The notes under the pieces are model-generated. The model saw nothing but the letters and a program-made list of their open reading frames with translations, had not been told where the DNA came from and ran no database searches. DNA of 64,000 nucleotides, from assembly GCF_029689945.1 (NCBI RefSeq), contig NZ_CP121451.1, forward strand, positions 4,154,001 through 4,218,000, read 5' to 3'. This DNA is from Paenibacillus amylolyticus. Lineage in GTDB: Bacteria; Bacillota; Bacilli; Paenibacillales; Paenibacillaceae. The position numbers were made by a program, and so were the translations under genes. Below are positions 3,849 through 61,673 of this stretch, in pieces; within the stretch, counting starts at the first letter, position 1, and every line of letters starts with the position of its first letter.

Positions 3849-6800
3849 ATGAAAGGACATTCGCGGAGAAATAGAATGATTCAGCGCTTCTGTTTAAGCT
3901 TACTCTGTATTCTGCTTAGTCTTGGGCTGGTACATCCAGCGTTCGCAGCGCCGCCTCCAGTACCTACCGTCACGACAGGTGCAGAAACGATTACGATTAG
4001 CAATTATGTATCCGGAGCTACTTTGAAGGTATACAAGGCAGACGGAGGTAGTCCGGTATGGCAGGAAGCGAATGTAATCACGTCTACAAAAACGATCAGT
4101 TTATTGCCGTATGTTAATTCGTATTATGTGACGCAAACGGTAAGTGGCGAAGAAAGTACGAATACGCCCTTCTTTAATCCAAGCCTGCGCACACCTATAG
4201 CGACTGCTGGTATTCGTGCTATTGATGTTACGAATGTATCAGGCAATACGACAGTCGAGCTACATCGTGTTTCGAATGGATCGCTTGTGTCTACAACGGT
4301 GTCAAATCAAGGTGGTGGAGTGTATCGTTTTGAGAATGTCATCCCGGATAGTAGCTTGTATTATGTCGTTCAAACCTATAGTGGCCAGACGAGTACAAAT
4401 ACGCCTTTTTTAACATCTAAGCTAAATACACCGATTGCAACAGGCGGAGCCGAATATGTCGATGTAACGAATGTAGATACCGATATTGGCGCTGTAATTA
4501 GCTTGTACAAAAGTGATGGCACGCTGGCGTTTAATTCATCGACCAATCAGGGAAACGGAACGCTTCGTTTACAAATGTCCCGGCAGGTTCTGGTTACTAT
4601 GTTAACCAGACCTTAAATGGTGTAGTAGCAGATTCCAATGGAGTAAATGTAACAGAAGATATTCCAGCCGCTCCAACTATTGTGGCAGGTAACGAGTCCT
4701 TAGTGGTTAGCGGTGTCACTGTAGGCGCTAACATCAAGCTGTATACAACGACGGGTACGTTAGTCGATGCGTATTCAAACGTTCCCGTATCCAGCTTTAC
4801 GATTCAAAATGTATTACCGAATACGATTGGTTATTATGTGACTCAGACCGTCAATGGGAAGGAAAGCGTTAATTCTAACTTTGCGAATCCAACCCTGCAC
4901 ATCCCAACTGCAACAGCGGGAATCGGTTATATCGATGTGAGCAATGTGACGAGCGGAGCTAGCTTGAATCTGTATGATGCTTCTGACAGTCAATTGGTAT
5001 CCACCACGACGGTGAATCAAGGAAACGGTGTATTCCGTTTTGAAAATGTAGTGCCTCGCAGTGGCTACTACTATATCACTCAAACGCTCGGTGGTCGTGA
5101 AAGTATTAACACATCATTTGTCAACTCGATGCTGCCCACACCTGTACTTGAAGGTGGTGTAGGTTATGTAGAAGTGAGCAATACGTATGCAGGTGCAGCG
5201 CTTATGTTATACAGCGGCGCGAGCCTGGTATCTTCGTCTCCACAGTCGATGGGAAATGGAATATATCGTTTTACGAATCTGAATGCAGCAACCCCATATT
5301 ATGTGGTTCAGTCCATTAATGGTGTACTGAGTTCAGCATCTAATATTGCGACAGTACAAGAGTTTATCCCCCAGCACCTGTAGTAGCTGGAATGGGCGAG
5401 TCGATTCAGGTGAGTAATTACATTTCGGGTGCTACACTGAAGCTGTATCGTGCTGACGGAACGGCAATCCAGACTTTCCCCAATGTGACCGGCTCTGTGT
5501 ATACGCTGGAAGATGTACTGCCTGATCAAGCCCATTACTACGTCACACAGACCGTAAATGGCATTGAAAGCTTGAATTCAATCTTTGTCAACTCTATCTT
5601 GCGTACCCCACTTGTTGTTGCAGGAATTGAATCGATTGACGTAAGCAATGTATCATCGTATGCCAAATTGAAGCTATATGATGCAGCCAACAATACAGTT
5701 GTTTCCGAAACATACACATTGCAGGGTAATGGAACCTACCGTTTTAATAATATTCCACCACGTTCAGGCTTCTACTATGTGACCCAGTCAGTGAATAACA
5801 CGGAGAGCGTCAACTCCATCTTTATCAATCCGATGTTGCGTACACCAACAGCTACAGGCGGACATCAATTCTTGGAAGTGGGTAACGTGTACCCAGGTGC
5901 AACATTAAAGCTGTTTCGTAGTGGAGACAGTCAGTCACTGATACTGCAGCCAATAAGTATTGGGAATGGGAAGTATCGCTTTAGCGGTATTTCTTCCAAA
6001 GGCAACTATTATGTTATTCAATATATAAATGATGTAGCTAGTCCTCGTTCCAATACAGTTGCAGTCACTGCTACAGACCAAGGCAACTCAGCTGGAAGTG
6101 GTAACCATAGTAGCACAACTCCTGTACAGGCGACCTCTTCACAACCGCAGACAGTTAATGTCGATGTGCTCGTAAATGGACGGGTACACAAGGCTGGGAT
6201 ATTAACTGAAAGCATGCAAGGAGATCGCAAGGTGCAGACAATTATTGTGAATCCACAGCTAGTACGTGCTCTACTCGCATCCGCAGGTCAAGGTGCGACG
6301 GTAACTGTACCATTTACGAATACTGGTAACGCCAATGTACTGATCACCCAATGGAGTGGTGAATTGATTCAAGAGATGAACGAGCAAGAAGCTAAACTTG
6401 TTATCGATACCCCACTGGGTATATATAGATTGCCATCCGCACAACTTCCCCTGGCTCAAGGAGGAATGAGTTTATCAACAGATGAACTTGCAAATACACA
6501 GATCGAGATTTCAATTGGTAAGGCACCTTCAGATGACAATGCTAAGATTAACGACATGGCTGCACAAAATATGACTGTGCTGCAACCTCCAGTCAGCTTT
6601 GAGATTGAAAAGATTACGAACGGAAATCGTACCTCTATGGATCGTTTCAATAAATATGTAGAGCGTCTAATCCCATTGCAGACAGATACAGAAAGTAATG
6701 GAACAATTACGGGTGTTGTACTGAACGGAAATTCGCTCATCCCCGTACCAACGCGTATTGTTGAGCACAGCAATCAAAAATATGCTATGATCTCTAGCTT

Positions 6801-7398
6801 GACGAACAGCACGTATGCACTGATAAAGCATGCTCCTGAACTGTATGACATCAACGGTAGCTGGGCTGCATCTGCTATTCAGAATATGGCTGCGCGGTTG
6901 ATAATTGAGGGTACAGGTAATGGTCAATTTGAACCGTCCCGATCAATTACACGAGCTGAGTTTGCTTCCATTTTGACAAGGGGGCTCGGATTAAAGCCAG
7001 GTGTCACTAGTTCCTCTTTTAATGACGTATCTCTATCTGCCTGGTATGGCGGAGCGATATCGAAAGCTGCAGAATATCAGTTAATTACTGGCTTTGATGA
7101 TGGTACGTTCCGTCCACAACAGCTGATCACACGCGCTGAGGCGATGGTGATGCTGTCGCGAGCATTGCAACTAACCGGACTACAGAATCAAAACCATCGT
7201 AACACAGAGTCATTGTTACAATCAGTTGCTGATGGGGATGCTATTCCTGATTGGGCACGTGATGCCGCAGCTGGAACGATTGAAGCAGGCTTATTCAATG
7301 GGTACAATGGTAATCAGTTGCTTCCACAAAAGACTGTAACGCGTGCTGAAATGGCATCACTCTTAGAGCGTCTATTGCGTAATTCGGGTCTAATTTGA
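3849..7398 (+). CDS. SLH-anchored surface protein with ~9 tandem repeats (two -1 frameshifts)
   Basis: Secreted cell-wall protein of about 1183 residues once two one-base losses are restored (T run 4568-4570; C run 5368-5372). The start follows AAGGGGGATCACTA. A signal peptide ends at AFA-APP (residue 33). About nine repeats of ~78 residues follow, with the pattern xIDVSNV-SGAxLKLY ... YRFxNVxP ... YYVTQTVNGxESxNS. A domain typical of Paenibacillus SLH proteins (VDVLVNG, TIIVNPQL) comes next. Three C-terminal SLH motifs with TRAEFA/TRAEAM/TRAEMA bind the secondary cell-wall polymer. A terminator follows. The ligand of the repeats is unknown. The breaks fall inside repeats whose continuation in the next frame is perfect. 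Confidence 0.85.
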
Positions 7399-7448
7399 TT
7401 ATAGCTATAAAATGATAGATCCCTGTAAATTAAATTTTTCTTTTTCAA

Positions 7449-7501
7449 ACTGTCCCTGTGTGAAACGGTGTTCTTACACTCGCATGAGGACAGTCTTTTT
7501 G
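7449..7501 (+). terminator. Terminator after the SLH gene
   Basis: ACTGTCC (7449-7455) pairs with GGACAGT (7488-7494) and CTTTTTG follows. The loop contains a smaller GTGT/ACAC pairing. It lies 50 nt after the SLH stop codon. Confidence 0.75.
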
Positions 7502-7688
7502 TTAGGATTTATTTATATTAACTCAACTTTCGCAGAATCAAAAAGATAACACCGAATTTTGTACTATCAGAGTTGAGTATTACATTTGAACTCAGTAAAT
7601 AATCCCCTAAATTTCTTTTTCTTGCTTTCAAAGTGCCACAAACCTAATATAGCAAGCATTGCAATTTATGGCATGTTTCTTATGAATT

Positions 7689-7724
7689 AAAAAATAGGCA
7701 CCACTCCACCAGAGTAGCGCCTAT
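7689..7724 (-). terminator. Terminator of the 28-residue peptide gene
   Basis: On the minus strand ATAGGCGCTACTC pairs, with mismatches, with GAGTGGTGCCTAT and is followed by six T. It lies 22 nt after the stop at 7746, which argues that the tiny reading frame is a real transcription unit. Confidence 0.75.
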
Positions 7725-7745
7725 CCTCCATTTACCTCTTTGTAA

Positions 7746-7832: not shown

Positions 7833-7889
7833 TACAGAACCTTCTCCACTGATGATTTGATTTGACTCCGGTTGGCCAAAACCGGACAA

Positions 7890-8158: not shown

Positions 8159-8201
8159 CTCTAATAAACCCATTAGACTTAAAGAAATAAGACGAAACCC
8201 T

Positions 8202-8803: not shown

Positions 8804-11800
8804 ATGGCTTTTATATTGAGATATAACACCACCATGAATGGAGCCATGACCTTTACAGGGAATACGATGGGTCTAAACAAGGTGGCTAACCAGAACAATC
8901 AAGGAACTGCCGGGTCTATTGGCGCATTCATTACGCTGAATACGGCTTCGCAGGTTGGTAACTTTCCACTAGGTACAACACTCGATTATACGCAAAATTC
9001 TTCTGCCGCTATACTCAGTTTACCATCAGGGTCCTCTGTACTCTATGCTGAACTCATCTGGGCGGGGAGTTACAACTATGGGGGCAGAATGTTAGCGGAG
9101 CAATTCCTAATCCCATTACCTTTTCTACCCCGGCGGGTACCTTCTCAGTTTCGCCCGATCCAGCTACAGCTGTTAACACAGCCCCAGCAGCAAGCTTCTA
9201 TGTCAACTCCGCAAATGTCACGTCACTCGTTCAGCAAGGTGGCGCGGGTACTTACGTTGCGGGAGGTATTCCAGGAACAGCTGCAGCTACTGAAAATAAT
9301 ACGAATTTTGCAGGTTGGACACTTGCTGTAGCTTATGGGAGTCCATTCCTGCCTTCTCGCAACATGAGTATTTTTGTGGGGAGTGAAATTGTTAATGCAA
9401 CGATAGGAGCAGCCACAGCATCTATTACTGGATTTGCTACACCTATTACTGGGAACGTCACTGGCCGTTTGATGGTCAGTGCATGTGAAGGCGACCCACA
9501 AATTGCAGGAGACCAGGCGTTATTTGGCCCGACAGCAGATACACTTGTCCCGATCTCCGGACCAAATAACCTGGTGAACAACTTCTTCGCTTCCCAAATT
9601 AACAACGATCAAGGGGTACTCAATACCAACGGAACCTTCGGTAATCTGAATAGTAGTCCAGGCACAGCAGTCATCGGTGCACGCCAAGGGTGGGATATTA
9701 CCAATGTTGACGTCTCTCCTGAGTTAATTAATGCTCAGACATCGGCTGTTATCCGATTACTTTCCAATCAGGATCAATATCTGGTGAACAGTGTCGGTCT
9801 TCAGGTCGATGTGAACGCACCTTTCTTCGTCTTTAATAAAAGTTCTAATGTGACATCTGCTTTGGTTGGGGACACGATTCAATATACGGTTACAGCATCT
9901 AATCAAGGCACTGCTGCTGCAACTCTAGTTTTGTTACAGGACAATTTCCCAAGTTCGGGCAGTTTCGTTCCAAACAGCTTGTCTGTAGATGGTGTACCTC
10001 AACCTGGGGCAAGTCCGGTTACGGGACTTAATCTCGGGGTTATCGCACCTGGCCAAACCGTTACCATTGTTTACTCCGTTCAAATTGTTTCTCGCCCCTC
10101 TGGCTCTACACAATCCAATGTCGCCAATCTAACATACAACTTCCAAAGTCTTCCTGGTGGTCCAACATTCCAAGGCATGTCTCAATCCAATGGCAACAAT
10201 GTCACCATCAACAACCGCCCTCCTACGGTTCCGAACTACTCTTATACAACCAATGTAAATGTCCCTGTTTCCAATCAAGTTACAGGAACTGATCCTGACG
10301 GCGACCCACTTACCTATTCCTTGAACTCTGTTCCAACTAGCGGAACGGTTGTGGTGAATGCGAACGGTACGTTCACCTATACGCCTAATCCAGGTTATGT
10401 TGGCCCCGACTCCTTCACTGTGCTCCTCAGTGATGGTTTGGGTGGTACAGCGGTATCAACAGTGGCCATCACCATTGTCAATCGTCCACCTGTTGCGCAG
10501 AATCTCAATTTGACGACCAATAAGAATACACCGGTTAACGGACAAATCACGGCTTCCGATCCGGATGGAAGCACATTAACTTATGCACTGAATTCTCCCC
10601 CAGCAAACGGTACAGTTACGGTAAACCCGGACGGATCCCTTACGTACACACCGAATACAGGTTTCGCCGGTACTGACTCATTTACTGTTATTGTACGAGA
10701 TCCAAACGGTGGAACGGCCATCTCGACCGTTACTGTTCAAGTGGTGAATCGTCCGCCTACAACGCAAAATGTGAATCTTACAACGCCTGAAAACATTGCC
10801 GTTTTTGGTCAAGTCATCGGCGTGGATCCCGATGGCGATCCATTGACTTATAACTTGAATTCCCAGCCTGCGAACGGAACAGCGGCTTTGAATCCAAACG
10901 GTACGTTTACGTATACACCGAACCCTAACTTTATCGGTGTAGATACGTTTACCGTGCTTGTCAGTGATCCAAGCGGCGGCACGGTAGTGTCTACCGTAAC
11001 CATTACTGTTGTCAATTTGCCACCAACAACCCAAAACGTAAACTTGACTACTCCTGAAAATGTACCTGTATCTGGGCAGGTTATTGCTAGTGATCCGAAT
11101 GCGGATCCGCTGACTTTTACGTTAAATTCAGCGCCTGCTAGTGGGACTGCCGTCGTCAATCCAGATGGTACTTTCACGTATACACCCAACGCATCCTTTG
11201 TAGGCACGGATTCATTTACAGTATTAGTCAGTGATGGTCGCGGCGGAACCGCTCTGAGCAACGTGACCATTCAGGTTACCAACCAGCCCCCTGTGGCTCA
11301 AAACCAGACGTTAAACACGCCAGGAAATACGCCTGTATCTGGACAAATCATTGCAACAGATCCGAATGCGGATCCATTGACTTTTGCCTTAAATTCCGTG
11401 CCAACGAATGGCACCGCTGTGGTGAATGCAGACGGTACGTTTACGTATACACCGAATGCTGGTTTTGTTGGTACAGATTCTTTTACCGCTATTGTGAGAG
11501 ATCCATCAGGTGCATCAGCCATTGCTACAGTTACCATCAACGTACTCAACCAACCTCCTGTAACGAGTAATCAATCGCTCTCTACCTTACAAAATACACC
11601 TGTAACAGGACAAATCATTGCGACGGATCCCAATGCCGATCCGTTGACCTACAGTTTGCTGTCCCCGCCAACCAATGGCACGGTTACGGTGAACCCAGAC
11701 GGAAGCTTCTCCTATCAGCCCGCGACAGGATATGTTGGCGTAGATACATTCTCTGTACTTGTCAGTGATGGACGTGGTGGAACAGCGGTATCTGTCGTTA

Positions 11801-14800
11801 CCATTACTGTTGCAAACCGTCCGCCTGTCGTTACTAACCAATCCCTTTCTACGTTGCAAAATGTTCCAGTAAACGGGCAAGTCGTTGCTACAGACCCGGA
11901 TGGTGATCCCCTTACTTATGCATTACAGTCTCCTCCAAGTAACGGTACCGCGATTGTGAATCCAGATGGAAGTTTCACCTATACACCGGTGACTGGATTT
12001 GTAGGTATTGATTCGTTCAGCGTACTGGTCAGTGATGGTAAAGGTGGAACGTCCGTCGGCTCTGTTACTGTGAATGTCATCGACCAGCCGCCTGTCACGC
12101 AAGATCTGCAGTTGTCCACCAACTTCAACACACCGCTAAATGGACAGATTCCAGCTACCGATCCGGATGGAGATACGCTCACGTACACGGTGTCTGTTCC
12201 ACCTGCCAATGGTACGGTAGTACTTGATCCAGCAACTGGCGCCTTTACGTATACACCCAATGCCGGGTTCATCGGCGTGGACCATTTCTCCGTATTGGTT
12301 AGTGATGGCAAGGGCGGTACTGCGACTTCTAACGTACAGGTCGGTGTACCTGTTTCACCACCAGTCACATCCAATATCACACTAGATACCAATGCCAACG
12401 TACCTGTCGCAGGTCAGATTCCAGCTACTGACCCGCAGGGCGAAACGCTTACCTATACGCTCACTACCCCGCCACCAAACGGAACCGTTGTACTTGATCC
12501 AGCAACGGGCGCCTTTACGTATACACCCAATGCTGGTTTTATAGGTACAGATACGTTTGTTGTGACGGTGACAAACACGAGTGGCATCCCGGTGACAAGT
12601 ACGGTGTCGGTCAACGTGGATAATCAGCCACCAGTTGTTCAAAATGTTTCTGTGGATACGGTTCAAAATACATCGGTTAACGGACAAATTCCAGCTACCG
12701 ATCCAGAGGGCAACCCGTTGACCTACACCGTTACAGCAACGCCTTCACTCGGCACAGTTACGGTCAATCCGGACGGATCATTCACGTATACACCTAATGC
12801 AGGCGTTGTCGGTACAGATACATTCAGTGTTCTTGTGAGCGATGGTCTTGGTGGTACAGCAACCTCTGTTGTAACGGTCAATATTATTGATCAACCTCCC
12901 GTGACACAAGATTTCCAATTTACGACACCGGCGAATGTTCCTGTGGCAGGCGCGGTCACAGCTACCGATCCAGATGGAGATCCTCTGACGTTCACATTGA
13001 ATTCCATCCCTGCAAACGGTACAGTTGTCGTCAACGTAGATGGCACATTCACCTACACGCCAAATGCTGGTTATATTGGAACAGACAGTTTCACGGTACT
13101 GGTTAGTGACGGTAAGGGGGTACTGCACTTTCTACAGTTACCATCAACATAATCAACGAACCGCCTGTTGCCACAGGTACGACGCTCACAACACCTCAAA
13201 ATACACCTGTCAGTGGCGCAGTCACGGCTACCGATCCAGAAGGAGTACCGATTACTTTTTCTCTGCTCAGTCCGCCGGTTAACGGGACAGTTGCACTAAA
13301 TCCTGACGGCACGTTTACGTACACTCCGAATGCTGGATATGTTGGTTCAGATTCATTCACGGTACTTGCGACAGATAGTCTGGGTGGCACAGATACTGCA
13401 CCAGTCATCATTACCGTTACGAACGTTCCTCCCGTCACCACGGATGTTAGTCTGACTACGAGCATCAACATCCCGATTTCCGGGCAAGTGCTCGCCTCTG
13501 ATCCAGCCGGTGATCCGTTAACGTTCAGTTTGCTTTCGCCTCCGGCGAACGGAACGGCTGTAGTGAACCCAGATGGTACGTTCACATACACACCGAATAC
13601 CGGATTCGGAGGTCAGGATGCTTTTACTGTGCTTGTCAGCGACGGTAGAGGTGGCACAGCAGTCTCGACGGTGACGATCCAAGTCGTCAATCAGCCTCCT
13701 GTGACTCAAAATGAGATTTTGAACACCTTACAATCCACACCAATAAGCAGTACCGTCATCGCGACAGACCCTGATGGTGACCCACTCACCTATGTATTGG
13801 GTAATCCGCCTGTAAATGGTGTTGCTGTTGTCAATCCGGATGGCACGTTTACCTACACTCCGAATGCTGGATTTGCGGGTACCGATTTCTTTACAGCAAC
13901 AGTTACCGATACACGTGGGGGACAGCAACAGCAGTTATCACCATTAATGTGGCTGTCAATAACCCGGTTGTGTCCAATCAAACGGTCAGTACCAATCCCA
14001 ATACACCGGTTTCAGGTCAGATTACAGCTGTTGATCCAGCCGGTGAACCTGTCACGATTACGCTGCTTAGCCCTCCTGCCAATGGCACGGTAACCGTGAA
14101 TCCAGATGGCACGTATACGTATACGCCAAATCCAGGATTTGTGGGTACAGACAGCTTTACCGTGCAGGCCACTGATCCAGGCGGCGGCATCGGAACAGGT
14201 GCCGTGACCATTTTGGTGAACAATGCACCTCCAGTGGCTGTCGGTACCAATGTGACAACCGCTGAAGATGTGCCGGTTTCAGGAGCAGTGACCGCAACGA
14301 GTCCAATCGGTAATCCATTAACGTTCACTCTGAATTCCGCACCTGTCAATGGAACGGTCGTTGTAAACACGGACGGAACGTTCACATATACACCGAATCC
14401 GGGATATGTCGGGCAAGATACATTTACCGTTATTGCCAGTGATGCTTTTGGAGGAACAGCTGTAGCGACAGCAGTGATTACCGTTGTAAATCAGCCGCCT
14501 GTAACGCAAGATCAGAATTTGACCGGTACACTAAATACACCGCTAAGCGGGCAAGTCATTGCTACCCATCCTAGTGGCAGTACACTTACGTACGCACTCG
14601 GATCACTGCCTACCAATGGTACGGTTACATTGAACCCAGATGGCTCCTTTACCTATACGCCTAACCCGAACTTTGCAGGTGTAGACTCATTTACGGTGTG
14701 GGTATTTGATAATAACGGTGGAAGTGCTGTATCTACCGTCACCATCACCATTCCCATTTTACCACCCGTTATTAATAGCACGCAGTTTACAACCAATGCA

Positions 14801-16501
14801 GATCTCCCGGTTAACGGTCAATTGAATGCCACGAGTCCTGAAGGAATTCCGGTGACGACTGCACTGGGTAATCTCCTTCCAGTGAATGGAACGGTTACAG
14901 TCAATCCAGATGGTACGTTCACGTATCAGCCGAATTTAGCCTTTGTAGGTACAGATACGTTCAGTGTAATCGCAACGGATGCCAACGGAGCCACAACCAC
15001 AGGTACCGTGACCATTCTAGTCATTGCTGTACCACCCGTTGCAAACGATGTGTTCCTCATTACCCCGATTAACACGGCTGTTTCAGGTCGTGTAACAGCA
15101 ACAGATCCGGATACTTCCGTATTAATCTATACGTTGTATGTTCCGCTTCCAGCTAATGGAACAGCGGTTGTGAATCCGGATGGGACATTTACGTACACAC
15201 CGAATCCCGGATTTACGGGTGTAGATACCTTCCCGGTCATTGTTACGGATGCCTATGGTTTAAATGATATCGCACTTGTTACCGTGACTGTCATTGCAGA
15301 TACACCTGTGGGACCACCTGTCAATGTAGCCACGACTACTGGACAGAGCGTAACAGGAACAGTTACGGTGACTGATCCTGCCGGTCTTGTTGTCACTTAT
15401 GCTTTGGGTACTTCACCTAGTAATGGTACAGCCGTTGTGAACTCAAATGGGACATTTGTATACACTCCAAATCCTGGTTACGTAGGGCAAGATACGTTCA
15501 CAGTGATTGCAACGAATTCAGCAGGACAGATTACCCTAGTTCCGGTCAACATCACGATTGTTGCAGGAACTGGAGGTCAGCCCGTAACGAATGACGTAGG
15601 GATTGGAACCAATCAAGGCCAGCCGGTGTCGGGTCAAATTTATGCCAGTAGCCCTGATAATTTGCCACTTACCTATGCTCTAGGTGCTCCTGCCGGTAAT
15701 GGAACTGTGAGTCTAACTCCTACTGGTGGATTTACGTACACGCCAAATCCGAATTTCTCGGGAACGGATACGTTCACTGTTGTGGTGACAGATAGTCTGG
15801 GTCGAAACTCGACAGCAACGGTTACCGTGGTCGTATATCCGGTTTCATCTGTTACGCCTACGCCACCAGTGAATCCGGATGTCCCCAATAATCCGAATAC
15901 ACCTATTAATATCAGTGCTCAATTAGGTACCCTATCCGGAGTACCTGTAAGAAGTGCAGCACCAGGAGCTGGCACGGCTTATAGTCTGGCCTCTGGACCA
16001 AATCATGGCGTCATCTCACTCGGAGCAGACGGTTCATTTGTCTATACTCCAAATTCAAACTTTGTAGGAACAGATAACTTCGTTATTCGCTATATTGATG
16101 CGCAAGGTAAAGTCGTCCTGTACAGCGTAACTATACATGTTGCAACTCCAGCCGGTACACCTGCCCCTGGAACTGGTGCGGGCGGGGGTGGCAGCTCTGA
16201 CACAGGTACGGCTATTCCAGTTCAACCTGATCCAACACTTACCTTGAACCTCAGGGGTGAAGAGAATCGAACATTGTTTAGTAATCTTGATTCATTACGG
16301 ATTGGTAGGATCATCCGAGCAAGAGTATTACGAGCTCCGCAAAACGGCAAATTAACTATAAATGACGATGGTTCGTTCAATCTGGCTCCCAATGCAAATT
16401 TCAAAGGATTCATTGAGTTCACCTTAGTGGTGACAGTGGAATCGGGAGCAGAGTATACGATTTATGTGACCGTCAACATCATTGCAGACGATGAAGAATA
16501 A
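8804..16501 (+). CDS. Giant surface protein with DUF11-like domain and ~23 tandem cadherin-like (tandem-95) repeats; three -1 frameshifts
   Basis: About 2566 residues when three one-base losses in runs of five G are restored (9080-9084, 13116-13120, 13917-13921). The start follows GGAGGTGAAATCG. The N-terminal ~330 residues begin MAFILRYNTTMNGAMTFTGN and show no signal peptide. A DUF11-like domain (DTIQYTVTASNQG, VTIVYSVQIVS) precedes about 23 units of ~88 residues. The units have the pattern PPVxxN...PVxGQIxATDPDGDPLTY...NGTVxVNPDGTFTYTPNxGFxGTDSFTVxVSD, as in VCBS/tandem-95 adhesin-like proteins. A Gly-rich spacer and a last divergent unit end in DDEE. There is no SLH, LPXTG or membrane anchor. 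Likely a large surface or spore-surface fibre; the role is inferred. Confidence 0.85.
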
Positions 16502-22765: not shown

Positions 22766-24198
22766 TTAATGCATGCTCTTTACTTTGTCTCGGTTGATAC
22801 CTGATCGACGTACAAACAATCCAATAATAAAGCCAATAACAGCAATAAGCATCATAGTCCAAAACACATGTTGTGCCCCTGCAGATATCGCATTTGCAAT
22901 TTCACTTGGCATAGTTGGGGTTGATGAAGTAGCGAAATACTTATTCTTTCCACCTGTTAAAATACTGATGGCTACAGCAGTTCCCATTGCGCCAACGACT
23001 TGCATCAATGTGTTTAGGGCCGCTGAACCATGAGGATATAATTCAGAGGGCAGTGAGTTTAAGGCGTTTGTTTGTGAAGCTGGCCAAATGAGGGCAATCC
23101 CACCTGCAAGAACCATATGCAATGCAACAATGAATCCAACAGATGAAGATGGAGTTAAAGTTGTTAAGAACCATAGTACCAATATCACAACAATTAAACC
23201 CGGGATGATGACCCATTGGGGGCCATACTTATCGAATAGTCGCCCTGAGACCATTTGCATAATACCATTAAGCGCACTACCCGGTAGTAAAATTAACCCT
23301 GTAATAAATACCGAAAGCCCTGCTCCTGTCTGTAAGTACATGGGCAATACAATCATGGTCGACATGAAAATCACCATACACATCATCACAAGGAAAACAC
23401 CAAGCACAAACATCGGATATTTGAATACACGCAAATTTAGTAATGGCTGATCCTTCCTTTGTCGCAAGACAAACAACACAACTGCAATCAATCCAACAAT
23501 GATTAACGTTAGAACGGTGGGACTCGTCCATCCACCTTCTGATTCCCCCGCGTGAACAAATCCAAATACAATACTTCCAAAGCCAATTGTCGATAAAAAT
23601 GCTGAAAGTATGTCAATCCGCTGCTTCGTTACTTCCGTTACATTCTCTAAATACTTCAACCCGAATAACATGCCGATTACTAAAAAAGGAAGCAATGACC
23701 AGAAAATATAGTGCCAAGATAAATATTGGATTAACATTCCGCTAATCGCCGGCCCCAATGCTGGTGCGAAGGATAAGACCAACCCCACATAACCCATTGC
23801 TGTGCCTCTCTTTTCTGGGGAAAGATTACAAGTATTGTATTAAACATGAGCGGTAATAGTAGGCCCATGCCAATAGCCTGTAAAACACGTGCAAACATAA
23901 GCATTTCAAAGTTAAATGATAGAGCCGCTAACAATGTCCCCGCTGTTAAACCTATCGTTGACGCAATAAATAATTGTCTTGTCGTAAACATTTGTAATAA
24001 CTGACCCGTGAATGGAATGATTATACCAAGCGTTAATAAGTACCCTGTTGTTAACCATTGCGCTGTAGCTGCTGTAATGTGAAATACTTCCATTAAATTC
24101 GTTATTGCTATGTTTAACGAAGTCTCACTAAACATGCCAACAAAACCGCAGATGAGTAGCGATACCAAGATGGCACGCGTATTGTATTGTCTCCCCAC
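22766..24198 (-). CDS. MFS multidrug efflux transporter, DHA2 (14-span) type; one -1 frameshift
   Basis: About 477 residues when one base is restored in the GGGG run 23817-23820. The N-terminal part ends NTILVIFP and the continuation TAMGYVGLVLSFAPALGPAISG is in the next frame. That segment is the family motif C of drug/proton antiporters. Motif A-like GRLFDKYGP and about 14 hydrophobic segments are visible. It resembles LmrB/EmrB-type pumps. It is divergent from an HxlR regulator at 24943 that may control it. A decayed paralogue start lies between them. Confidence 0.85.
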
Positions 24199-33872: not shown

Positions 33873-36800
33873 TCAGCTCTCTTGCACGAGTGAAAGTTCT
33901 GCGGCCGGATTCCAATTATCCGCTCCGGCAAAGAGTTGGGCAGGCAAATATTTCTCTGCCTCTTCCGTCGTCAACTGAGTCGTCCAGTTCAAACGTGCTT
34001 TGGGATTCGCTCCAGGCCCGTAACTGGCAAATTCGGCAAAACGTGCTGTACGTTCATTATCCGGGTTACTCCAGTTATTCCATCCAGATGCACTAATGTG
34101 ATTATCCATATAGCTGTTGATATAGACTACATTGGCATAAGGTCTCCACGGTCTGCCAAGAGGTATAGTTCCAGCTAGACTAGAATTGCCAGTAATGTGG
34201 CTATTCAGGAAGACATAACCAGACTTCTCTTCCGCAGTGGATGCTGCAGTAACGTAACCATTGCTTAAACTGTTTATGACGCTGTTCTCAAACAATGCCG
34301 TTGCATTGCCAAAGATAAAGTCGACATCACCTTCAATATAACTGTCCACATAATATTGCCTTCCATCATTCACATAGAGCGTGTCCTGCCACCCCTTCAA
34401 GCTAACGTCCCGGAATACCAGACGATCACCACGAGCGAACAGAGCAACCGCTTGACCTGCATTATCGCCTGCATCATTTTGTATTGTCAGATGCTCAGCT
34501 GTAAAATCGTTTGTCTGCACTCGGAAGCTATAGCTACCTGAGGTACCGAGTGCATTGCCGGATGAATCCAATGTGCTGGCAGAATCACCGTAGATCAGCA
34601 CAGTGCCCTCCCGGCTTTCTCCAATGATTCGCAGATGTTTTTGCTGGACGGTACGTCCAGCTTCTCACGGTAAATTCCGTCCTTAATTCGTATGATGGTA
34701 GGAAGCGTGCTATTGTCCGGAACAGCATGTATAGCTTCCTGAACCTGTTCATATTGTGCACTTCCATCAGATGACACGGTTAGAACTGGTGCAGGAATTT
34801 CAGATATTGGAGCGGACGACATACTCTCCCCAAATTCATTCAATCCCGTAATGACATAATAATAGGCAGTACCATTAATTAACTGCGTATCAGAGAACGA
34901 AGTATCATTTACATTTGAAGCTACAGTAACGAATGGCCCTTCGGGTGATTCACTTCGTTTCACTGCATATTCCTCAGCCTCCTCGGCTTCTTGCCAAGTA
35001 AGAGTGATTGTACTTTCACCTGGTTCAGCACGAATCTCTGATGGAGCTTGAGGTCTACCATCATCCACTGCCGGCCGTGTACCAACGGCTGAGGAGTCAA
35101 GGCTTCGTGTACCTTGAGCCAGTGCGGTCACTTTGTAATAATAGGGCTTACCGTTTAAGAGTCCTGTATCCACATAGGAAGTTCCTGATTCCTGATCAGC
35201 AATGACATCATAAGTTCCAGTCACAGACATTGCACGCTTGATCACATAAGTCGAAGCTCCTTCTATCGCTTTCCACGTGATAGAAACGGATTCAGGAAGA
35301 GACTCTACTGTGACTTGGGGAGTAGATAAAGCCATCGTCGGCGTTACAGCAACAGGGGAAGAATCTTCTCCCTCTCCTCCAATACCAGTCGCAGATACGA
35401 CGTAATAGTAGGTCGTTCCGTTATCCAGTCCTCCATCCCGAAACGTAGGAACAGCTGCACGAGACGACACAGTTGTATACGGGCCTTCAGCCTGCAAACT
35501 ACGTTTTACAGTGTAGTAGTTAGCTGCTACGACTTCATCCCACGTTAAATCTGCTTGTGCGTTTCTCGCAACAGCCATCAGATTCTCAGGCATATCTGGT
35601 CTTACAGCATCCTCCGAGGGTGTCACTGAAGACGTGTTGGAATTACTGCTCTCGCCCAATGGACCAACGGCCGTGACGACATATGTGTAAGCCGTTCCAT
35701 TGGTGACCTCTTCGTCAATGTAAGTTGTCTCAGTTAACTCAGAAGCAATCAACTCATAGTCGTTTGCGGACTGAATACTACGCTTTACATTGTACGTAGA
35801 AGCCCCGTCCGCTTCCTCCCAGTGTAATCTCACCATACCATTGCCTGGTTCGGTACGAAGCCCTTTAGGAGAACTAACCGGTTCAACATAAAGTTTGACA
35901 TTGTCATAGAACAACGTGCCTTTACCCGTACCTGGTGTTCTGGCAAACATTCGTGCAACACCATCGGCAGTCACATCAGCCTGGAACGGTACATCATCTG
36001 CGACGCGCACATCATCAACGTATATATCCGCTTTTTGCGAGGCTACATTGCCAACAATCTTGAAGTTGTACCATTGATTATTGACCGGTGCATCCATTAA
36101 TTTGTGATCTTTGCCGTCTTTTTTGTATATTAGCGTATACTGATCCTCCGCTACCGGAGCAGAAGGTTTGCGTAGCTCGATGGAGAGTGCAGCACGACTG
36201 CCGGTGCCATTTTGCAATTGCAGAACGGTTGATGTGCCAGGCCAGCCTTGAGACATGATATCAGCCTCAAATACAAAACTTCCCCGTTGTGGTGGAAATG
36301 ATCTTGCGAATTGGGCGATCCCAGCCCCATTGTCATATAGCATGAGCGCTTTAGCAGACGCGTTTCCTGTTGTTCCTGTGGGAATCTGGGTAACAACAAC
36401 TTTAAGATCGTTCGTCTGTGGATCAGGGAGTACAGTATAACTTGCTGGTGTCGTATTGATCTCGATATCCTCAAAGTCATCATTCATGTAATAGATGGTC
36501 TCGGGCTCTCCTTCCGCTGCTGCACTAGCCTCATTGGAGTAGAAGCTTGTGCCATGATCATTCGAAGCCTTCACTGCGTAATAATAGGTTTTACCTACAG
36601 TAAGATTGGGATCTGTGTAGCTGGTGGTCGTAATTCCCTCTTGCTGCAACGTGTATGGCCCGCCAGGTATATCTGCTCTATACATTGAATAAGAGTCTGC
36701 ACTTTGCACTTCATCCCATTGTAACTGAATGGACTTGAGATCCGGCTCAGCTACAAGTTCAGTAGGTGCTGTCGGGAAATCAGCAGGCAACTCCTGAACG

Positions 36801-38956
36801 GATGCATTGGAGAAAACAGACGTATTGAGCTTATCAACTTCATCATCCGGTTTGGAAGCATCGGCGCCAATCCGATGTAGACCGTTTCGTCTGCCGGGAA
36901 TGATTGTGAATCGATAACAAACCAATCGTTACCGTCTTTGGATACAAGTGAAGTCACTTGATCCCCAAGTCGCACAAGCTTAACCCAATATGGGAGTGTG
37001 ACCAAGCTGCCTTTTCCTGATGCACAACTTCGGTGCCCGCTCCATTACGAACAAGGCTAATCGCTTGTTGTCCACCCTTCACATAAGTGACCATGGCGGC
37101 AATAAACGGGGATGACGCATCAAGACTACTACGAATCATGACGCCTGCTTCGGCTCCATCATCGGTAGCTGTCACCTGATTAACTCTTGCTACAATCTCA
37201 CCATTTCCTTCTAAGGTTTGGTATGCATAGTGGAAATGATCCTTCTCCCCACTGATATCTCCAGCTGATTTTACTGTAACGTCAGTATCGCTACCTCCTA
37301 ATTGGGTATGACCCGCGATACCTGGTTCTCCAATATCGATGGATGACCACGGGAAAATACTGTTCTGCTTGTGAACATGCACCGTGACATTGTTAGACTG
37401 CGTTGAAGTACCTGAGTCATCAATCGCTCGAGCAGTGAGATAATGCGTGCCATCCTGCACATTTTCCCATGTAAACGTGTAAGGTGCTGTATCAGCTTCC
37501 CCAACCTCACATCATTTTGATAAAATTCCACTTTGGCTATGCTTCCGTCTACATCAGATGCGGAAGCAGTGATCTCAACGGAAGCCCCCTCCTCCTGACT
37601 GGTATGGTTCGCAGGGGATTGAATTGTAACTGTAGGATTCATAGATCCATTGCCAGCAATACTGTTCAAATATACTTCGAGATAGGTGTAACCTGATTCA
37701 TGAATCTCATTGCGGTCAGCAGGATCGTTAGGATCGAGTCCCATACTGATCTCCCATTCGTCAGGCATACCGTCATGATCAGAATCAACCAGAGCTGAAG
37801 CCGTCTCTTCGAACTCTAGGTAACCCCCGACTTCCTTTTGTGAATTAATATGTTGCCCGGTACGATTCTTCACGTCATTTACGATTCGGGCATCTATGGC
37901 GTCTCGTCTAGGCAGAATTGCACCTGCTTTTGCAAGAACTTGCTCATAGGCTGTTTCTGCATCGTCCATGGATGTGGGATTAGCCATCTGCACAGGAGCG
38001 AGTAGTTTGGAATCTGGATTCGCAAGTTCTCCCACACCTAACCAGTTGTCCGCTGTAACATCGGGATAACTGTCCACGACATTGCCACTCACATGTAATC
38101 GTGTATCAGGTGCAACATCAAGGAAAATCTGATCCCTGGCATTTCGATACGTATTCGGTCCGTATTTATAGTAGTTATTCATAAGATTATAATTGCCTTC
38201 CTCACCCCCATAAGCAGAGAAGAACCCCCAATTATAGACAATATTGTTGTAGGACTCGGTATTAAAGCCAGGAGAGCCTGCAAATCTCGGATTGCGGCTC
38301 ACATTGTGAGCAATGATATTGTGATGAAAGGAGGTGTTGTTGCCGCCCCATATGCCTGCATATCCATGTCTCCCCTTCTGATGTGTAGTCATTAGCATGC
38401 TCTCCGCGATAACCGACCACTGCACAGTTGTATTTTCATTGGCGTACATACTTAACACTTCGTCAACTGACCAGGTAAACGACGAGTGGTCGATCATAAT
38501 GTTTTTGTGGTATCGTCCACCAAATACGTCATCCTCACTAGAGTGCTTATCCCCAAGCCGAAAGCGCATATGCCTGACGATAATGTTGTCCGCTTGGAAT
38601 GTGGTCCAATAATCGGATACAGTGATTCCTTCTCCTGGAGCTGTCTGTCCAGCGATCGTGATATTAGAACCGGTAATCGCCAGAGGGGATTCCAGATGAA
38701 TCGTTCCTCCCAATCTGAATACTACGGTGGTATCACTCTGACTAACAGCATCTCGAAGTGATCCAGGGCCGGAATCGGCGAGGGTGGTCACTTCATACAC
38801 TGACCCTCCCCTACCACCTGTCACGTACTTACCGCCGCCTTCAGCACCGGGAAATGCGGGCAATAATGGAGTAGCTTCATCTTCTGCAGCAACCATACCT
38901 GGTAGCAAACTGAATAACATCGCAACGACCAATACGAATGATACCATTCTTTTCAA
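33873..38956 (-). CDS. Secreted pectate lyase-pectin methylesterase fusion (PL1 ... FN3 ... CE8); four -1 frameshifts
   Basis: About 1695 residues after restoring one base at four places (37499-37502, 37012-37015, near 36865, 34638-34642). TTG 38956 follows GGAGGAGGAAG. Order: signal peptide ending MVAAEDE; a PL1-type pectate lyase (residues ~30-430; GGRGG, IMIDHSSFTWSVDE, NPRFAG); an Ig-like domain; a concanavalin-like domain; FN3; a second concanavalin-like domain (YYMNDDFEDIEIN); about four FN3; and a CE8 methylesterase. CE8 has GQAVAL, GWQDTLYV, DVDFIFGNA and GRPWRPYANV carrying the Gln/Asp/Asp/Arg catalytic set. One polypeptide would both demethylate and cleave pectin outside the cell. 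A cre box and hairpin leader precede it. Confidence 0.85.
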
Positions 38957-43183: not shown

Positions 43184-44067
43184 ATGTCCAAACACAATGT
43201 TAAAAAGGAACAACTCGGTGGCTTCATATTCAATGTAATGAATTATACGTTCTTGCTTCTTTTCTCTCTCGCCTGCCTATTACCCTTCGTAAACGTCGTT
43301 GCCAGTTCCTTCGCTTCCACGCAGGAGATTGTGCAGAAGAAGTTTATTCTGTTTCCGACCTCCTTCTCACTTGATGCCTATCGTTACATCTTCTCCACAC
43401 CTACCATCTTCAAAGGACTCGGCGTATCCATCTTCATCACGCTGGCAGGAACCATTGTCAGTATGACGCTAACGGCACTTATGGCTTACGGGTTATCCAG
43501 GAGATATCTCATGGGACGGAATTTTATCAATTTCTTGGTCGTCTTCTCGATGTTGTTCAGCGGGGGATGATTCCTACCTTCCTGGTTGTGAAAGCCGTTG
43601 GGTTAATCGACTCGTACTGGTCCATGATTATCCCTACTGCGATCAATGCATTCAACCTGATCATCATGCGCAATTTCTTCCAGGCGTTACCGGATAGCCT
43701 AGAGGAATCTGCCAAAATTGATGGTGCCAACGACTTTCGCATTTTGCTGCAAATTATGATTCCACTCGCTCTACCTTCCATTGCAACCTTATCCCTGTTC
43801 TATGGTGTATCCTATTGGAACACATATATGAATGCGATCCTGTACCTCAACGAGTCCACGATGTGGCCGCTGCAAGTATTGCTCCGCCAGATTGTCATTG
43901 TATCCAGTGGCATGGATGGCAACAGCTCGGTTGTAGACATTGTCCCTCCATCTCAGACCATTAAAATGAGTGTCATCGTTGTGGCTACTGTACCGATGCT
44001 GCTTGCGTATCCTTTCGTGCAGAAGCACTTTACCAAAGGCGCTTTACTTGGTTCAGTGAAAGGTTGA
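43184..44067 (+). CDS. ABC oligosaccharide importer permease C (LplC/YtcP type); one -1 frameshift
   Basis: About 294 residues after restoring one G in the run of five at 43562-43566. ATG follows AAGGAGGAACATATCAG. N-terminal half: six-span start with ASSFASTQEIVQKKFILFPTSFSLDAYRYIFS. Second half: GMIPTFLVVKAVGLIDSYW and the EAA loop EESAKIDGANDFRILLQIMIPLALP. It ends FTKGALLGSVKG as LplC-type permeases do. It pairs with permease B at 41906-42871. Confidence 0.87.
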
Positions 44068-44122: not shown

Positions 44123-44197
44123 CACTTATATGGAATGAAGTTTAATTTTGAATGTGCTTACGGATTATCGGATACTGCCAACGTATACAGGGATTAC

Positions 44198-46437
44198 TCA
44201 GCTATCCATCCGCAACCTTCGATATGCACCAGGGGTGAGATTCTCTTTTTCCGAAAAGTACGTATAAAGTTCTGGGAATTCTGATATCCCAGTCGTTCGG
44301 CTATATCTTTGATGGGCATGTTCGTGTCCACCAACCATTTCCTTGCTACATCTAGTCTGATATTCATTAAGTACTCGCTAAAGGTCATATTGTATTCTTT
44401 ACGGAAAATGCTGCTTAGATAGTTCGGCGTATAATGCAATCGTTCACTTATGGATTCCAGTGACAAGTCCTGATCGTATTCCGTGCGTACAATAGACGCC
44501 ATACGATCTGCAAGTGTGCGGAACTGTTGGCTCGCTCTCTCCTGCATACTATCTACCATAGGATAGATGACCTCGTGAACAAGAATGTGCTCAACTTCTT
44601 CCGGATTCAACGTGTGCAGTAGTCGATGATACAATGTGCCGTTACGCTGTGTAAGCAACACGTCCGTACCAATGAGCTGCTCCAACTGAATCAAATTGTT
44701 CACGAATCGAATCAATGTGATCTCCAGATTCATTGGATTAAGGTTGTGCTTCATCATATCTGCTAACAGCGGGTATAACGTACGTGTCACCTCTTCTTTG
44801 TCACCAAGACGTATGGCATCGAACAGCCGACTCTCCAATTCTGTAGGGTAGTGAAGTAAGGTTGGCCCGTTGCCCACACGTAAGATATCCTCATAGAAAA
44901 TAACGGACTCTTTGCCTAACTTAAGACGCTGGTACAATGCTTCAAGACTCATATCACAGGCTTCCCGGGTATTCATCAGGTCTTCATATTGACCACTGAA
45001 GCCCACACTGACTGAAGCGGACCAATACTCGCGAGACAATTGAATAACCCTTTTGGCATATTGCAACATTACTTCTCGATTGTCTGAAGAACTGCCAGCG
45101 AAGGATAATATCGTTGCTTGTGTCCGTTCATTCAACACGACAGGTAACATCCGTTGGGACGGAGGGATGATCTCCTGCACTAACTGATTAACGGCCAACA
45201 GCAGTGTATCTTTATCAGCCAGCGAGCCTTTCCCGGGACGGTCAATCTGAATCAACATCGTTGCATATATCTCGTTGTACATCTTCGTATATGCGAATCG
45301 TTCAAGATAGCTATGGATCTCTTCCCTGGTTAACCTATTCTGTAGTACATTTAGAACAAATTGTGTTTCAAGTTTGGGCTTTTCAAGATGGATAAGCTGT
45401 TCAAGATGTTGTTTCTCTGAAACAATAGAATGGATCGACTGAATGATCCAACCGACCTCGTCCCTGACCGTTCTCTCAGCACGTCCACCAAGACTATGCT
45501 GAATTTGAAGAACGGGCTTGGCAAGCCGTAAAGCTATAATGTATGCAAGAATGATCATCAGAGCCATAATGACGGCACCCATTACAATTAAACCCAAACG
45601 GGTCGATGATAGAGCTTGGCTGACTTCTTTTTGATTGGGAAGTGTGATATAAGTCCATCCATTATAAGTAGAACGGGCGTACAAGCCCATGATTGAATCA
45701 CCCGATGCAGCAGGAATTGTAATCTGTCCTGAAGGGGGCTCATTAATTATTTGTTTGCTGATTAAGTTCATTTGCTCAGCAGATATAGAACTTTGTTCGG
45801 TTAAAGCTGCGTAGAGCAATTCACCCTGTTTGTTCAAAATGTAGATCGGAGCATCGGATTGCGTCTGTAGGGATTGATTCAGTGTTCGCAAAGAAATGTC
45901 CGACATCGCAATGGCTTCCTTGTCCTTCGAATACATTGGTAAAGCATGCAGCAATCGAAGACCTTCTTTTGTTTTGGTCCAATAGAGATTATTACCTTCC
46001 GGGTCAGCGAATAAGGCTTGCATCCGTTGCTTCTCTTCATCTGTAATTCGTTTTAACGACCCGTTAGACAGGCTCCAATTCTGCTTCAGACTCACAAGCG
46101 AATACTGTACGCCATCAAGCCCCATCGTCGCAATATACCCTAACTGGGAATTGAGTTCTCGGTAAGCTTCATAATCTTGCCCGCTTAATGGACTGTTAAT
46201 GACCTTACGAAAAGATGGTGTTGTACTGTACGTGGCAAATGCATATTCAATGGTTTGAATTTTTTGTTCCAGTGTATTTCTCACCTGCAGAATTAAGCTT
46301 TGGTGCCCTTCGCTTACACGTGCTATTACAGATTTTGTAGTTGCAACATAGATATAACTTCCAAAACCTACAACGAGTCCGATGCTAAGGAGTAGGATCG
46401 AGACAAAGATATTCGTAAACGTTTTACTCTTTCGCAT
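44198..46437 (-). CDS. Membrane-sensor AraC-family regulator; one -1 frameshift at the C-terminus
   Basis: About 746 residues. The start at 46437 follows GGGGGAG. An N-terminal span (NIFVSILLLSIGLVVGF), a ~245-residue extracellular sensor, a second span (LGLIVMGAVIMALMIILAYIIAL), a long cytoplasmic linker and a C-terminal double helix-turn-helix (SLESISERLHYTPNYLSSIFRKEYN; IKDIAERLGYQNSQNFIRTFRKK). Restoring one A at 44246-44250 gives the expected ending ENLTPGAYRRLRMDS and stop at 44198. This class regulates polysaccharide importers next door in Paenibacillus. It converges on permease C. Confidence 0.88.
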
Positions 46438-46651
46438 GTCCTGCTCCCCCATCTGTTTGAATTGGTACATCTTCAGTCCATTTGTCATGAAACCCTTCAC
46501 GGCAGATATGTAATCGCTTGCATTTTACTGTACTATAAAAACTGTAAGCCGTTTTAGATCTCGTCACACTAGAGTTTATCATGGCAATGAACAAGAATAT
46601 AGACATAAAGAATATAAAACTAGCCAAAAATTGCACTGGAGGTTAAGACGT

Positions 46652-47527: not shown

Positions 47528-48486
47528 TCAATAATTAATATGGTTTACAATCTCATCTATAACTTCCTGACAAGTCAGGATTTCTTGGATTCCTCCTGCT
47601 GATGGAGAAACGCTGATGGTTCCTTGGTCTAAGTTTCCTAATAAGAGCGCCTCTTTGTATCCGTTTTTATGATAAGGTATAGCCTCTTCATCTTTTCCTT
47701 CCTTAATGAGCTCGTATGCTTTTAGTCCTCCTGGTGTTGGAATGGTTCGCTCATGTACTCCTTCAAGTTCAATGATTTCTTCACTGTTGACCTGAACAAT
47801 TGCGCGTTTTGCCGCATGACTCGCAGGATTTTCCACTGTCGCTATGAATCTTGTCCCCATATACACGCCTTGTGCTCCCATCGCGAAGGCTGCTTAGCTC
47901 CTCGTCCATCAATGATACCGCCAGCCGCGATTACAGGTATACTGACAGCTGCGGTTACTTGGGGTAGTAAGGTGAAAAGACTAACATTGTACTGACTGAT
48001 ATGCCCTCCCGCTTCGCTACCGGTGACAATAACAGCGTCAGCTCCATGTTTCTCTGCTTCCATGATGTTCTGAACAGTAGGTGTGATCGGTCGATAAAGC
48101 ACCGTTATACCGTGCTTTTTTAACTTAACCATTTCGCTTGCAATCATTTGGTTACCAATGGCTACTACATATTTCACCTTTTCTTCGATCAGGATGTTGA
48201 AAAGCATTGTAGTAAACGGTTGAGTACCACTGTCATCAAACGGAAAGATATAATTTACAGCGAAGTTCTTATTCGTTAACTGCTTCACTTTCCGAATCTC
48301 GTTTCGCACATTGTCAGCATACTCTTCCAAACTATTGGGATTTAGGGTTTGTCCTGCATTTGGTCCCAGTACCCCCATGCCTCCAGCATTACACACAGCT
48401 GCTACCAACTCTGCTGAAGTGACCCAATTCATAGCCGCAGAAATAATGGGATATTCTATATTTAATAACTCCGTAATCTTATTCAT
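47528..48486 (-). CDS. Nitronate monooxygenase-like FMN enzyme; one -1 frameshift
   Basis: About 319 residues once one A is restored near 47894. ATG 48486 follows AAAGGAGC with 6 nt spacing. TIM-barrel FMN enzyme: IEYPIISAAMNWVTSAELVAAVCNAGGMGVLG at the N-terminus, GADAVIVTGSEAGGH in the middle, IPVIAAGGIIDGRG and then MGAQGVYMGTRFIAT in the other frame. These fit the 2-nitropropane dioxygenase/FabK group, which oxidises propionate-3-nitronate or reduces enoyl thioesters. It is divergent from an HxlR regulator. Confidence 0.85.
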
Positions 48487-48650
48487 TGGATAAGCTCCTT
48501 TATATATGTTAATACGTTGATTGAGGAATGCCGCAATGTCTTCTATACTAGTTGAGACCTCCATATTAGAGAAGTAGGCAATAATAATGAACATAGTCAC
48601 TTTTTTAGTACTATAGGATAATTAGATTGATCAGTGAGAGGAAGAAATAT

Positions 48651-49564: not shown

Positions 49565-49593
49565 AAAGTTATTACCTTGAAGGAGTGATTACA

Positions 49594-50435
49594 TTGTCAG
49601 AACCAAAAGTATGGCTTATCACTGGATGTTCAACAGGATTTGGGAGACACATCGCGCAGCAAGCGATTGATGCAGGTTATAATGTTGTCGTGACCGCACG
49701 TAATGTTGAGCAGATCACAGAACTTACAGCGGGGCATGAAGATCATGTGCTTGCTCTCCCACTCGACGTGACTAATCCAGAGCAGATCCGCAATGCGGTT
49801 GATTGTACGCTGGAAAAGTTTAAGCGTATTGATGTACTTGTGAACAATGCAGGTATTGGATATTTCAGCTCGGTTGAGGAAAGCGTAGAGGAAGAAACGC
49901 GTAAGATGTTCGAGATTAACTTCTGGGGGCTCATGCATGTGACGAATGCGGTACTCCCTTACATGCGTTCTCAAAAAAGTGGTCACATTATCAACTTTTC
50001 ATCCATTGGCGGCTTAACTTCCTTCCCAACTCTCGGGTATTATCATGCTACGAAATATGCTGTTGAGGGCATATCTGAGAGCCTCTCTAAGAATTGGCAC
50101 CTTTTAATATTTACGTGACTTTAATGGAGCCAAGTAGTTTCCGCACGGATTGGGGTGGCCGTTCTTCTGCCAAAACAGAGACAAGCATCCCTGAGCTTAA
50201 AGAATCCATTGTTGGACAAATGCTGCAAGGTATTCAACTGGGGGCTGGTCAAGAAGCTGGAGATCCGGCAAAGGCTGCTGAAGCAGTTATCAACGTTGTG
50301 GAAACAACGGAACCTCCTCTTCGTCTATTGCTTGGAAAACAAGCCTACGATGCAGCAACCTATAAATTCAAGAACATGCTTACGAGCATAGAACAATGGA
50401 AAGAAACAACGATAAACGCAGATTACAAATCATAA
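49594..50435 (+). CDS. Short-chain dehydrogenase/reductase; one -1 frameshift
   Basis: About 280 residues after restoring one base near 50089-50091. TTG 49594 follows AAGGAG with 8 nt spacing. The N-terminal half has the nucleotide motif GCSTGFGRH, NNAGIG, the catalytic Ser in INFSSIGG and YxxxK in YYHATKYAVEG. The other frame continues LAPFNIYVTLMEPSSFRTDWGGRSS. This ending is typical of the large 'classical' SDR group used on aldehydes and ketones. The MerR-type promoter makes it inducible. Confidence 0.87.
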
Positions 50436-59821: not shown

Positions 59822-59822
59822 C

Positions 59823-59872: not shown

Positions 59873-59912
59873 CTACTGGGAAAATGTACAGATACCGACA
59901 ACTTCAAGAAGT

Positions 59913-60428: not shown

Positions 60429-60572
60429 GTTACATTTTATCCTTTCTGTATCATTTTGAGTTGATTCATTGATTCTAATCTTAACCGATGATACATTTGT
60501 TACACAAAAAATGATACGTCTATTTTATGTTGTTTGTACAATGGACGTGTTCAAGATAAAAGGAGATAACAG
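60429..60572. other. Divergent control region of the TetR and hydrolase genes
   Basis: Contains two direct TGATAC motifs (near 60487 and 60512) and a TTGTTTGTACAATGG stretch before the plus-strand start. A TetR operator would be expected here; no clean palindrome was identified. Confidence 0.4.
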
Positions 60573-60707
60573 ATGACACTCACACGAAATCGCATTATTA
60601 CTTTAATTGTAATTATCATCGTAGCTGCAGTATTGGGCCGGCTAGCGGTGCGGGCAGTTTTAAATTTAATGCTCGGTGGTACTTTGTTCGGAGGTAATTT
60701 CTTATGA
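60573..60707 (+). CDS. 44-residue small membrane protein
   Basis: ATG 60573 follows AAAGGAG with a good spacer. The product begins MTLTRNR, has the span IITLIVIIIVAAVLG, then RLAVRAVLNLMLGGTLFGGNFL. The stop overlaps the start of the next gene (ATGA), a sign of translational coupling. It mirrors the 40-residue protein placed before the hydrolase at 50544. No family is recognised. Confidence 0.7.
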   Translation: MTLTRNRIITLIVIIIVAAVLGRLAVRAVLNLMLGGTLFGGNFL

Positions 60708-61673
60708 AAAATAACGCTAAAGGCGGGCGTAAAGTGTTGTGGGGATTGATCTATGTAGTTACTTTTATTGTTGTATTCGCGGCTTCAGCATTCATCAAAA
60801 TGACATACAATCCACTGTCTGGAGAAATGCAGGTTAATTGGAATGACAGTGTTGGGCGGGTATATACAGATATTGCCTATGACAGTAAAGAACAAAATAA
60901 ATTTGATCTCTATGTTCCAGCAGATCATACAAAGAAAAATTATGGACTTGTCGTATATCTCCATGCAGGAGGGTTTTCAACCGGTGACAAAAGTGATGAC
61001 GCCAATATGCTAAAATGGCTTACTTCAAAAGGTTATGTTGCAGCAGGTATTAATTATACGCTGCGTGATGAAAATAACCCTGAAGCTAGTGTGCTTACCA
61101 TGTCACAGGAAATCAAAAAAGTATCCCCGTTGTAAAAGCCGAAGTGGAAAAGTTAGGCTATCATCTCGATAAAATGGCTATATCCGGTGGCTCGGCAGGC
61201 GGAACTCTTGCGTTATTGTATGCTTATCGTGATGCGGATACCTCCCCATTCCTGTGAAAATGGTGTTTGAGATGGTGGGTCCGCCAAGCTTCTATCCAGA
61301 GGACTGGGCTACCTACGGTTTGGATCAGAATCCAGAGGCAGCAGCAGGCTTATTCAGCATTATGTCTGGTAACACGATTACAACCGACATGATCGGAACT
61401 GCAAGCTACGATGAAGCTGTTAAAGATATTTCACCGTTTATGTGGATTGATAAAAATTCTGTACCTTTACTAGCTGCCTATGGAAAACACGATAGAGTAG
61501 CACCGTTCGGGACAGTAAAATATCTGATCAACGCATTAGAGGAAAACAACGTTCCCCATGATTACTTCGAGTTCCCCCACTCGGGACACGGTCTGCAAAA
61601 TGACAATAAGCTTTATGCACAATATATTGATAAGCTAAACGAATATCTGAAACGTTACATGCCAACCGAATAA
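60704..61673 (+). CDS. Membrane-anchored alpha/beta hydrolase (esterase); two -1 frameshifts
   Basis: About 323 residues when one base is restored in the A run 61115-61120 and one in the C run 61244-61247. N-terminal anchor (LWGLIYVVTFIVVFAASAF), oxyanion motif YLHAGGFS, nucleophile Ser164 in ISGGSAGGTL, acid Asp in YGKHDRVAPFG and His in PHSGHGLQN. It belongs to the esterase/lipase group related to hormone-sensitive lipases. It is coupled to a small membrane protein gene and followed 43 nt later by a second hydrolase. Confidence 0.83.

Follow-up and report, generated by a model that had tools for sequence, protein, structure and literature searches.

Seventeen single-base frame breaks spread over the window, the 64,000-base stretch analysed here (contig 1, positions 4154001-4218000, of a Paenibacillus genome of 6.83 Mb in 3 contigs), are almost certainly consensus errors of the assembly and not features of the living cell. 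This reading is supported by one-way losses that extend over the genome, their dependence on run length, the presence of breaks in housekeeping genes and the lack of any relaxed selection, and it bears out the earlier note, which had attributed the breaks to homopolymer undercalling in the source data and advised against calling the genes pseudogenes. Artefacts of this kind are already well described, and in that sense the finding is ordinary.

The closest relatives of the window genome all belong to one genus, and the named loci with which it shares genes are from Paenibacillus. For the middle of the window, the nearest relative found is G023 (94% DNA identity), followed by G001 (93%) and then by G008 and G034 (86 and 83%). 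The estimated completeness of the genome is 95.84, compared to 99-100 in most genomes of the same genus; low values are also seen in G018 (92), G019, G082 and G092 (94 each) and G087 (89). A segment of about 38.6 kb, which includes positions 1-32158 of the window and sequence upstream of them (193596-232158 of a 400-kb stretch around the window), has no long match in G023; the latter carries about 9.4 kb opposite it, and the first half of the window falls within a strain-specific stretch. Positions 7686-7855 are a dispersed element found at 75-93% identity in at least 10 genomes of the genus and present in multiple copies in some of them (G078, G075, G013), and about 350 bases at 3109-3459, which differ from the sequence around them in being 97% identical to G079 and 78-83% identical to several other genomes, probably represent a mobile-element remnant. 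An Rfam search of the window gave zero matches.

The genes that carry the breaks are the following:

3849..7398, + strand: surface protein gene with terminal S-layer homology (SLH) domains; breaks at 4568 and 5368; one distant relative, at the protein level.
8804..16501, + strand: giant repeat surface protein gene (bacterial Ig (Big_9) and cadherin-like repeats); breaks at 9080, 13116 and 13917; its counterpart in L243 is a single intact frame of about 2570 residues (83.5% identity over 2564 residues), with nucleotide alignments as well.
22766..24198, - strand: MFS transporter gene; break at 23817; MFS_1 in both pieces; intact 479-residue frame in L233, 85% identical.
29495..30693, - strand: MFS transporter gene; break at 30052; MFS_1 in both pieces; intact frame in L252, 75.8% identical.
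33873..38956, - strand: single long gene encoding Ig-like, fibronectin III and pectinesterase domains, broken at 34638, 36865, 37012 and 37499; P. pabuli L005 has a single intact frame of 1697 residues (95.9% identity).
43184..44067, + strand: ABC transporter permease gene (BPD_transp_1); break at 43562, a one-base loss relative to 15 of 15 relatives in the cluster, with L266 short there too.
44194..46500, - strand: AraC-type regulator gene with a Cache domain (HTH_18, dCache_1); break at 44246; 97.9% identity to the G023 frame (769 of 770 residues), with L266 short there too.
47528..48600, - strand: nitronate monooxygenase gene; break at 47894; NMO in both pieces; intact frame in L092, 83.6% identical.
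49585..50435, + strand: short-chain dehydrogenase gene (adh_short); break at 50090; 94% identity to the G023 frame (282 of 283 residues).
60704..61673, + strand: esterase gene of the BD-FAE family, broken at 61115 and 61244; L225 has an intact frame of 323 residues (88.2% identity).

Proteins of relatives were compared with the window by tblastn, which served as a first pass of lower sensitivity, and then with a purpose-written frameshift-aware protein-to-DNA aligner. All 17 losses were recovered no more than 7 bases from an independently found frame break, and at each of them the frameshift-aware alignment with relatives gave the shift that loss of a single base would produce (-1); for 4568, 5368 and 34638, some relatives yield +2, which is an equivalent change. 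Nucleotide alignment with at least one relative confirmed one base fewer in the window at 15 of the 17 sites, and at 4568 and 5368 support is confined to the protein level and to a single relative (35% identical overall, 47-49% in the best pieces). Relatives have plain open frames at the 17 sites, the exception being the nanopore-derived L266/L006 at three of six sites. We count 10 broken genes instead of the 11 of the earlier note, and its description of almost every site as a homopolymer was slightly overstated: 13 sites have a run of four bases or more within reach, as opposed to 17.4% of random window positions (p = 1.6e-7), and the other four consist of 4568, with a run of three, and 36865, 47894 and 50090, with no run above two. 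A common direction holds for all 17 sites, with one possible exception outside them, an apparent gain at 50888.

This gain belongs to the 14 additional clusters that, together with the 17 sites, make up the 31 clusters of candidate shifts returned by a frameshift-aware scan of the window:

29259 and 29345: within a gene remnant that contains four stops.
39086: loss of one base, located upstream of the start that most relatives use.
16632, 23525, 40374, 42902, 43186, 48623, 49029 and 54084: at the end of a gene or of an alignment, seen with one to three relatives, or in poor alignment.
40251: apparent gain relative to L006, a record that is itself loss-rich.
48776: apparent gain relative to G023, with G010 matching the window there.
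50888: apparent one-base gain in a gene, relative to a single relative (L224, 81.5% identity).

Comparison with G001 adds one more base lost at 32737 and a single gain in the window. The remnant at 29100-29400, which has four stops and two shifts relative to L255 (63% identity, 117 of 194 residues), has the appearance of true decay and differs in this from the 17 sites.

The excess of losses extends well beyond the window. Over the 400 kb around it, alignment with syntenic G023 sequence revealed 84 one-base losses and 10 gains inside G023 frames (209 kb of aligned coding DNA), and 101 losses and 84 gains outside these frames; in the surroundings of rpoB (336 kb aligned to G023), 115 coding losses and 28 gains were counted, compared to 27 and 16 in a control alignment of G023 with G034. 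At the protein level, 130 of 480 conserved G023 proteins (27%) are broken in the window genome over two 400-kb stretches (53 of 189, with 64 losses and 2 gains, in one; 77 of 291, with 82 losses and 14 gains, in the second), in a comparison that used frames of at least 100 residues without gene prediction, so that some are spurious and all comparisons are equally affected; some of the 14 gains of the second stretch probably sit on such spurious frames. The resulting total of 146 losses versus 16 gains agrees with undercalling, under which losses should far outnumber gains inside genes, and in the G023/G034 control 19 of 521 proteins are broken, with 10 losses and 12 gains (7 of 261 and 12 of 260 in the rpoB stretch; 0 of 45 and 0 of 43 in the window stretch).

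A second trait expected of undercalling, a loss rate that climbs with run length, is seen at lengths 3-6. Considering both stretches, coding runs are shorter than in G023 in 14 of 9416 cases at length 3, 24 of 2296 at length 4, 30 of 596 at length 5 and 21 of 152 at length 6 (0.15, 1.05, 5.0 and 13.8%, respectively), and longer in 0, 3, 0 and 0; of the longest coding runs, 0 of 24 are short at length 7, an exception to the climb, and 2 of 3 at length 8, which brings the total for lengths 3-8 to 91 shorter versus 3 longer. The control comparison of G023 with G034 is flat to length 6 (6 of 4884, 0 of 1176, 2 of 307 and 0 of 95 shorter at lengths 3-6). Base identity also matters, with 22 of 113 G/C runs of five being shortened versus 8 of 483 A/T runs. 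Noncoding runs of lengths 3, 4, 5 and 6 are short in 1.03, 2.31, 6.5 and 16.0% of cases; they are shortened more than coding runs at lengths 3 and 4, and the values for lengths 5 and 6 are similar to those of coding runs. Because coding and noncoding runs of five and six are equally affected, frame-breaking losses have not been weeded out.

Runs of three bases or longer are involved in 138 of 196 coding losses and runs of four or longer in 95 (expected 18% and 5.5%). Homopolymers are thus the main context, as proposed in the earlier note, but not the sole one: the remaining 58 losses (about 30%) involve, in the window assembly, nothing longer than two equal bases, and single-base runs are lost in 52 of 185,091 cases in the window genome versus 8 of 94,242 in the control. 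The loss signal is accordingly not purely homopolymeric, and errors of long reads need not all fall within homopolymers. A count by eye of 33 cleanly flanked lone-base losses in coding DNA gave equal flanking bases for 18 and unequal ones for 15; part of the lone-base losses may represent two runs that a substitution had merged and that were afterwards called one base short. A k-mer search for a modified-base motif around these 33 losses identified no single motif, only G/C-rich words being enriched.

Genes are affected whatever their importance, as is also expected of undercalling (rpoB, gltX, ispD, rplA and others). In the window genome rpoB consists of two adjacent pieces in different frames, as opposed to a single frame of length 1188 in G023, G034 and G001, and gltX and ispD are split here and open in the same three genomes. 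Each of these genes has one location and no second full match (elsewhere, gltX and ispD have only weak sub-threshold matches), and, despite being broken, they retain 97.9-99.8% protein identity to the relative; rplA, open in relatives, is found minus its first residues. Twelve named or probable housekeeping proteins, chosen because they are broken, have at least one shift each and 94.8-100% protein identity, the break in pcrA being a two-base change; on G034, 11 of the same 12 proteins are clean, the exception being a Clp-type ATPase with a shift. The genes rpoB, gltX, ispD and pcrA are known to be essential in Bacillus subtilis. Relaxed constraint was sought in 118 broken genes by means of the third-codon-position share of substitutions and none was seen in comparison with 284 intact genes (0.765 versus 0.769); divergence is 6.95% in the broken genes and 6.51% in the intact ones.

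These data bear directly on readings that take the breaks to be real. Recent gene decay through true one-base deletions in this strain would fit their presence in the deposited sequence, the fact that many of them hit genes of accessory function (surface proteins, carbohydrate use) and the proximity of a real remnant at 29.1-29.4 kb with its four stops and two shifts; it is, however, extremely unlikely in view of the 27% of conserved proteins that are broken, including those encoded by rpoB, gltX, ispD and pcrA, the one-way losses and the conservation of the broken genes, which equals that of the intact ones. Essential single-copy genes, which decay should spare, have not been spared (rpoB, gltX, ispD). 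A mismatch-repair-deficient mutator with real, genome-wide slippage in runs of equal bases would likewise produce an increase with run length, but such slippage yields gains as well as losses and is kept out of essential genes; considering the 91 shorter versus 3 longer coding runs of lengths 3-8 and the split rpoB, we regard its probability as vanishingly small.

Large surface proteins are known elsewhere to undergo run-length switching, and the location of some breaks in genes for such proteins (3849-7398 and 8804-16501) raises the question whether homopolymers serve programmed frameshifting or phase variation, at least among genes for surface proteins and transporters. Against this, relatives have plain open frames at the matching places, the conserved shift site that would be expected among them is not seen, the signal is spread over all kinds of genes, and runs of four or five are short for phase variation; we thus hold this reading to be highly improbable. 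There is also a slight chance that a few of the 17 breaks are real run-length variants hidden among sequencing losses, most plausibly in 3849-7398 and 8804-16501.

Under the preferred reading, undercalling, the assembly was most likely made from nanopore-type long reads without correction by accurate short reads (both points are inferred). Homopolymers, chiefly those of four to six G or C, would have been called one base short, and a short-called run inside a gene would have shifted its reading frame. The result is an annotation warning and not a discovery: apparent sequencing losses split about a quarter of the tested conserved proteins, which makes calls of pseudogenes, apparent absences of genes and counts of gene-family members unreliable when they are derived from the assembly. 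Such cases can be decided without reads by codon-position counts and a look at rpoB, and a break shared by two isolates is no proof of biology if both assemblies stem from one kind of sequencing.

The last point is illustrated by G087, whose locus L266 is 99.99% identical over 9,990 bases to record L006 (CP094668) of Paenibacillus sp. OVF10. The earlier note had named shared breaks in independent isolates as evidence against undercalling, and such breaks do exist: three of the six window sites testable in G087 are also short there (37499, 43562 and 44246, two of them found by an automatic comparison with an 8-base reach and the third lying 9 bases away), and ispD is in two pieces too. At 43562, G087 is short by a different letter than the window. 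This recurrence does not refute undercalling, because the second record, an assembly of the same type, was built from nanopore reads, and it is best read as a property of the sequencing method. In the available part of the OVF10 report, nanopore reads and a Canu assembly are described and the word "polish" is absent from the main text (PMC10376600); the available part of an earlier OVF10 paper contains no sequencing details and no mention of nanopore (PMC9320186). OVF10 shows 4 coding losses and 0 gains in 21.6 kb relative to its close relative P. pabuli, and G087 shows 5 losses and 0 gains in 14.5 kb relative to G001. The accessible text of the former report also describes OVF10 as having few tryptophan-pathway orthologs and no squalene route (PMC10376600), and published statements of this kind on gene absence may be affected by one-way losses. 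OVF10 resembles the window genome in the direction of its losses, but it is a separate strain with its own set of breaks.

A closely comparable case is provided by the Kastor paper, the available part of which reports gene-fragmenting deletions in nanopore R9-type bacterial assemblies, linked to homopolymers two to eight bases long, most often four to five, and accompanied by the loss of some non-repeated bases, with 23.3% of genes fragmented (pseudogenes) before correction and completeness below the corrected value (PMC12007338). Run-linked deletions and gene fragmentation are common to that case and to the window genome, with its 27% of broken conserved proteins and completeness of 95.84. 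The two differ in that, according to the same portion of that paper, A and T runs led there, whereas in the window genome G/C runs of five are about ten times likelier to be affected per run, and in that reads were available there, whereas the window genome was judged from the assembly.
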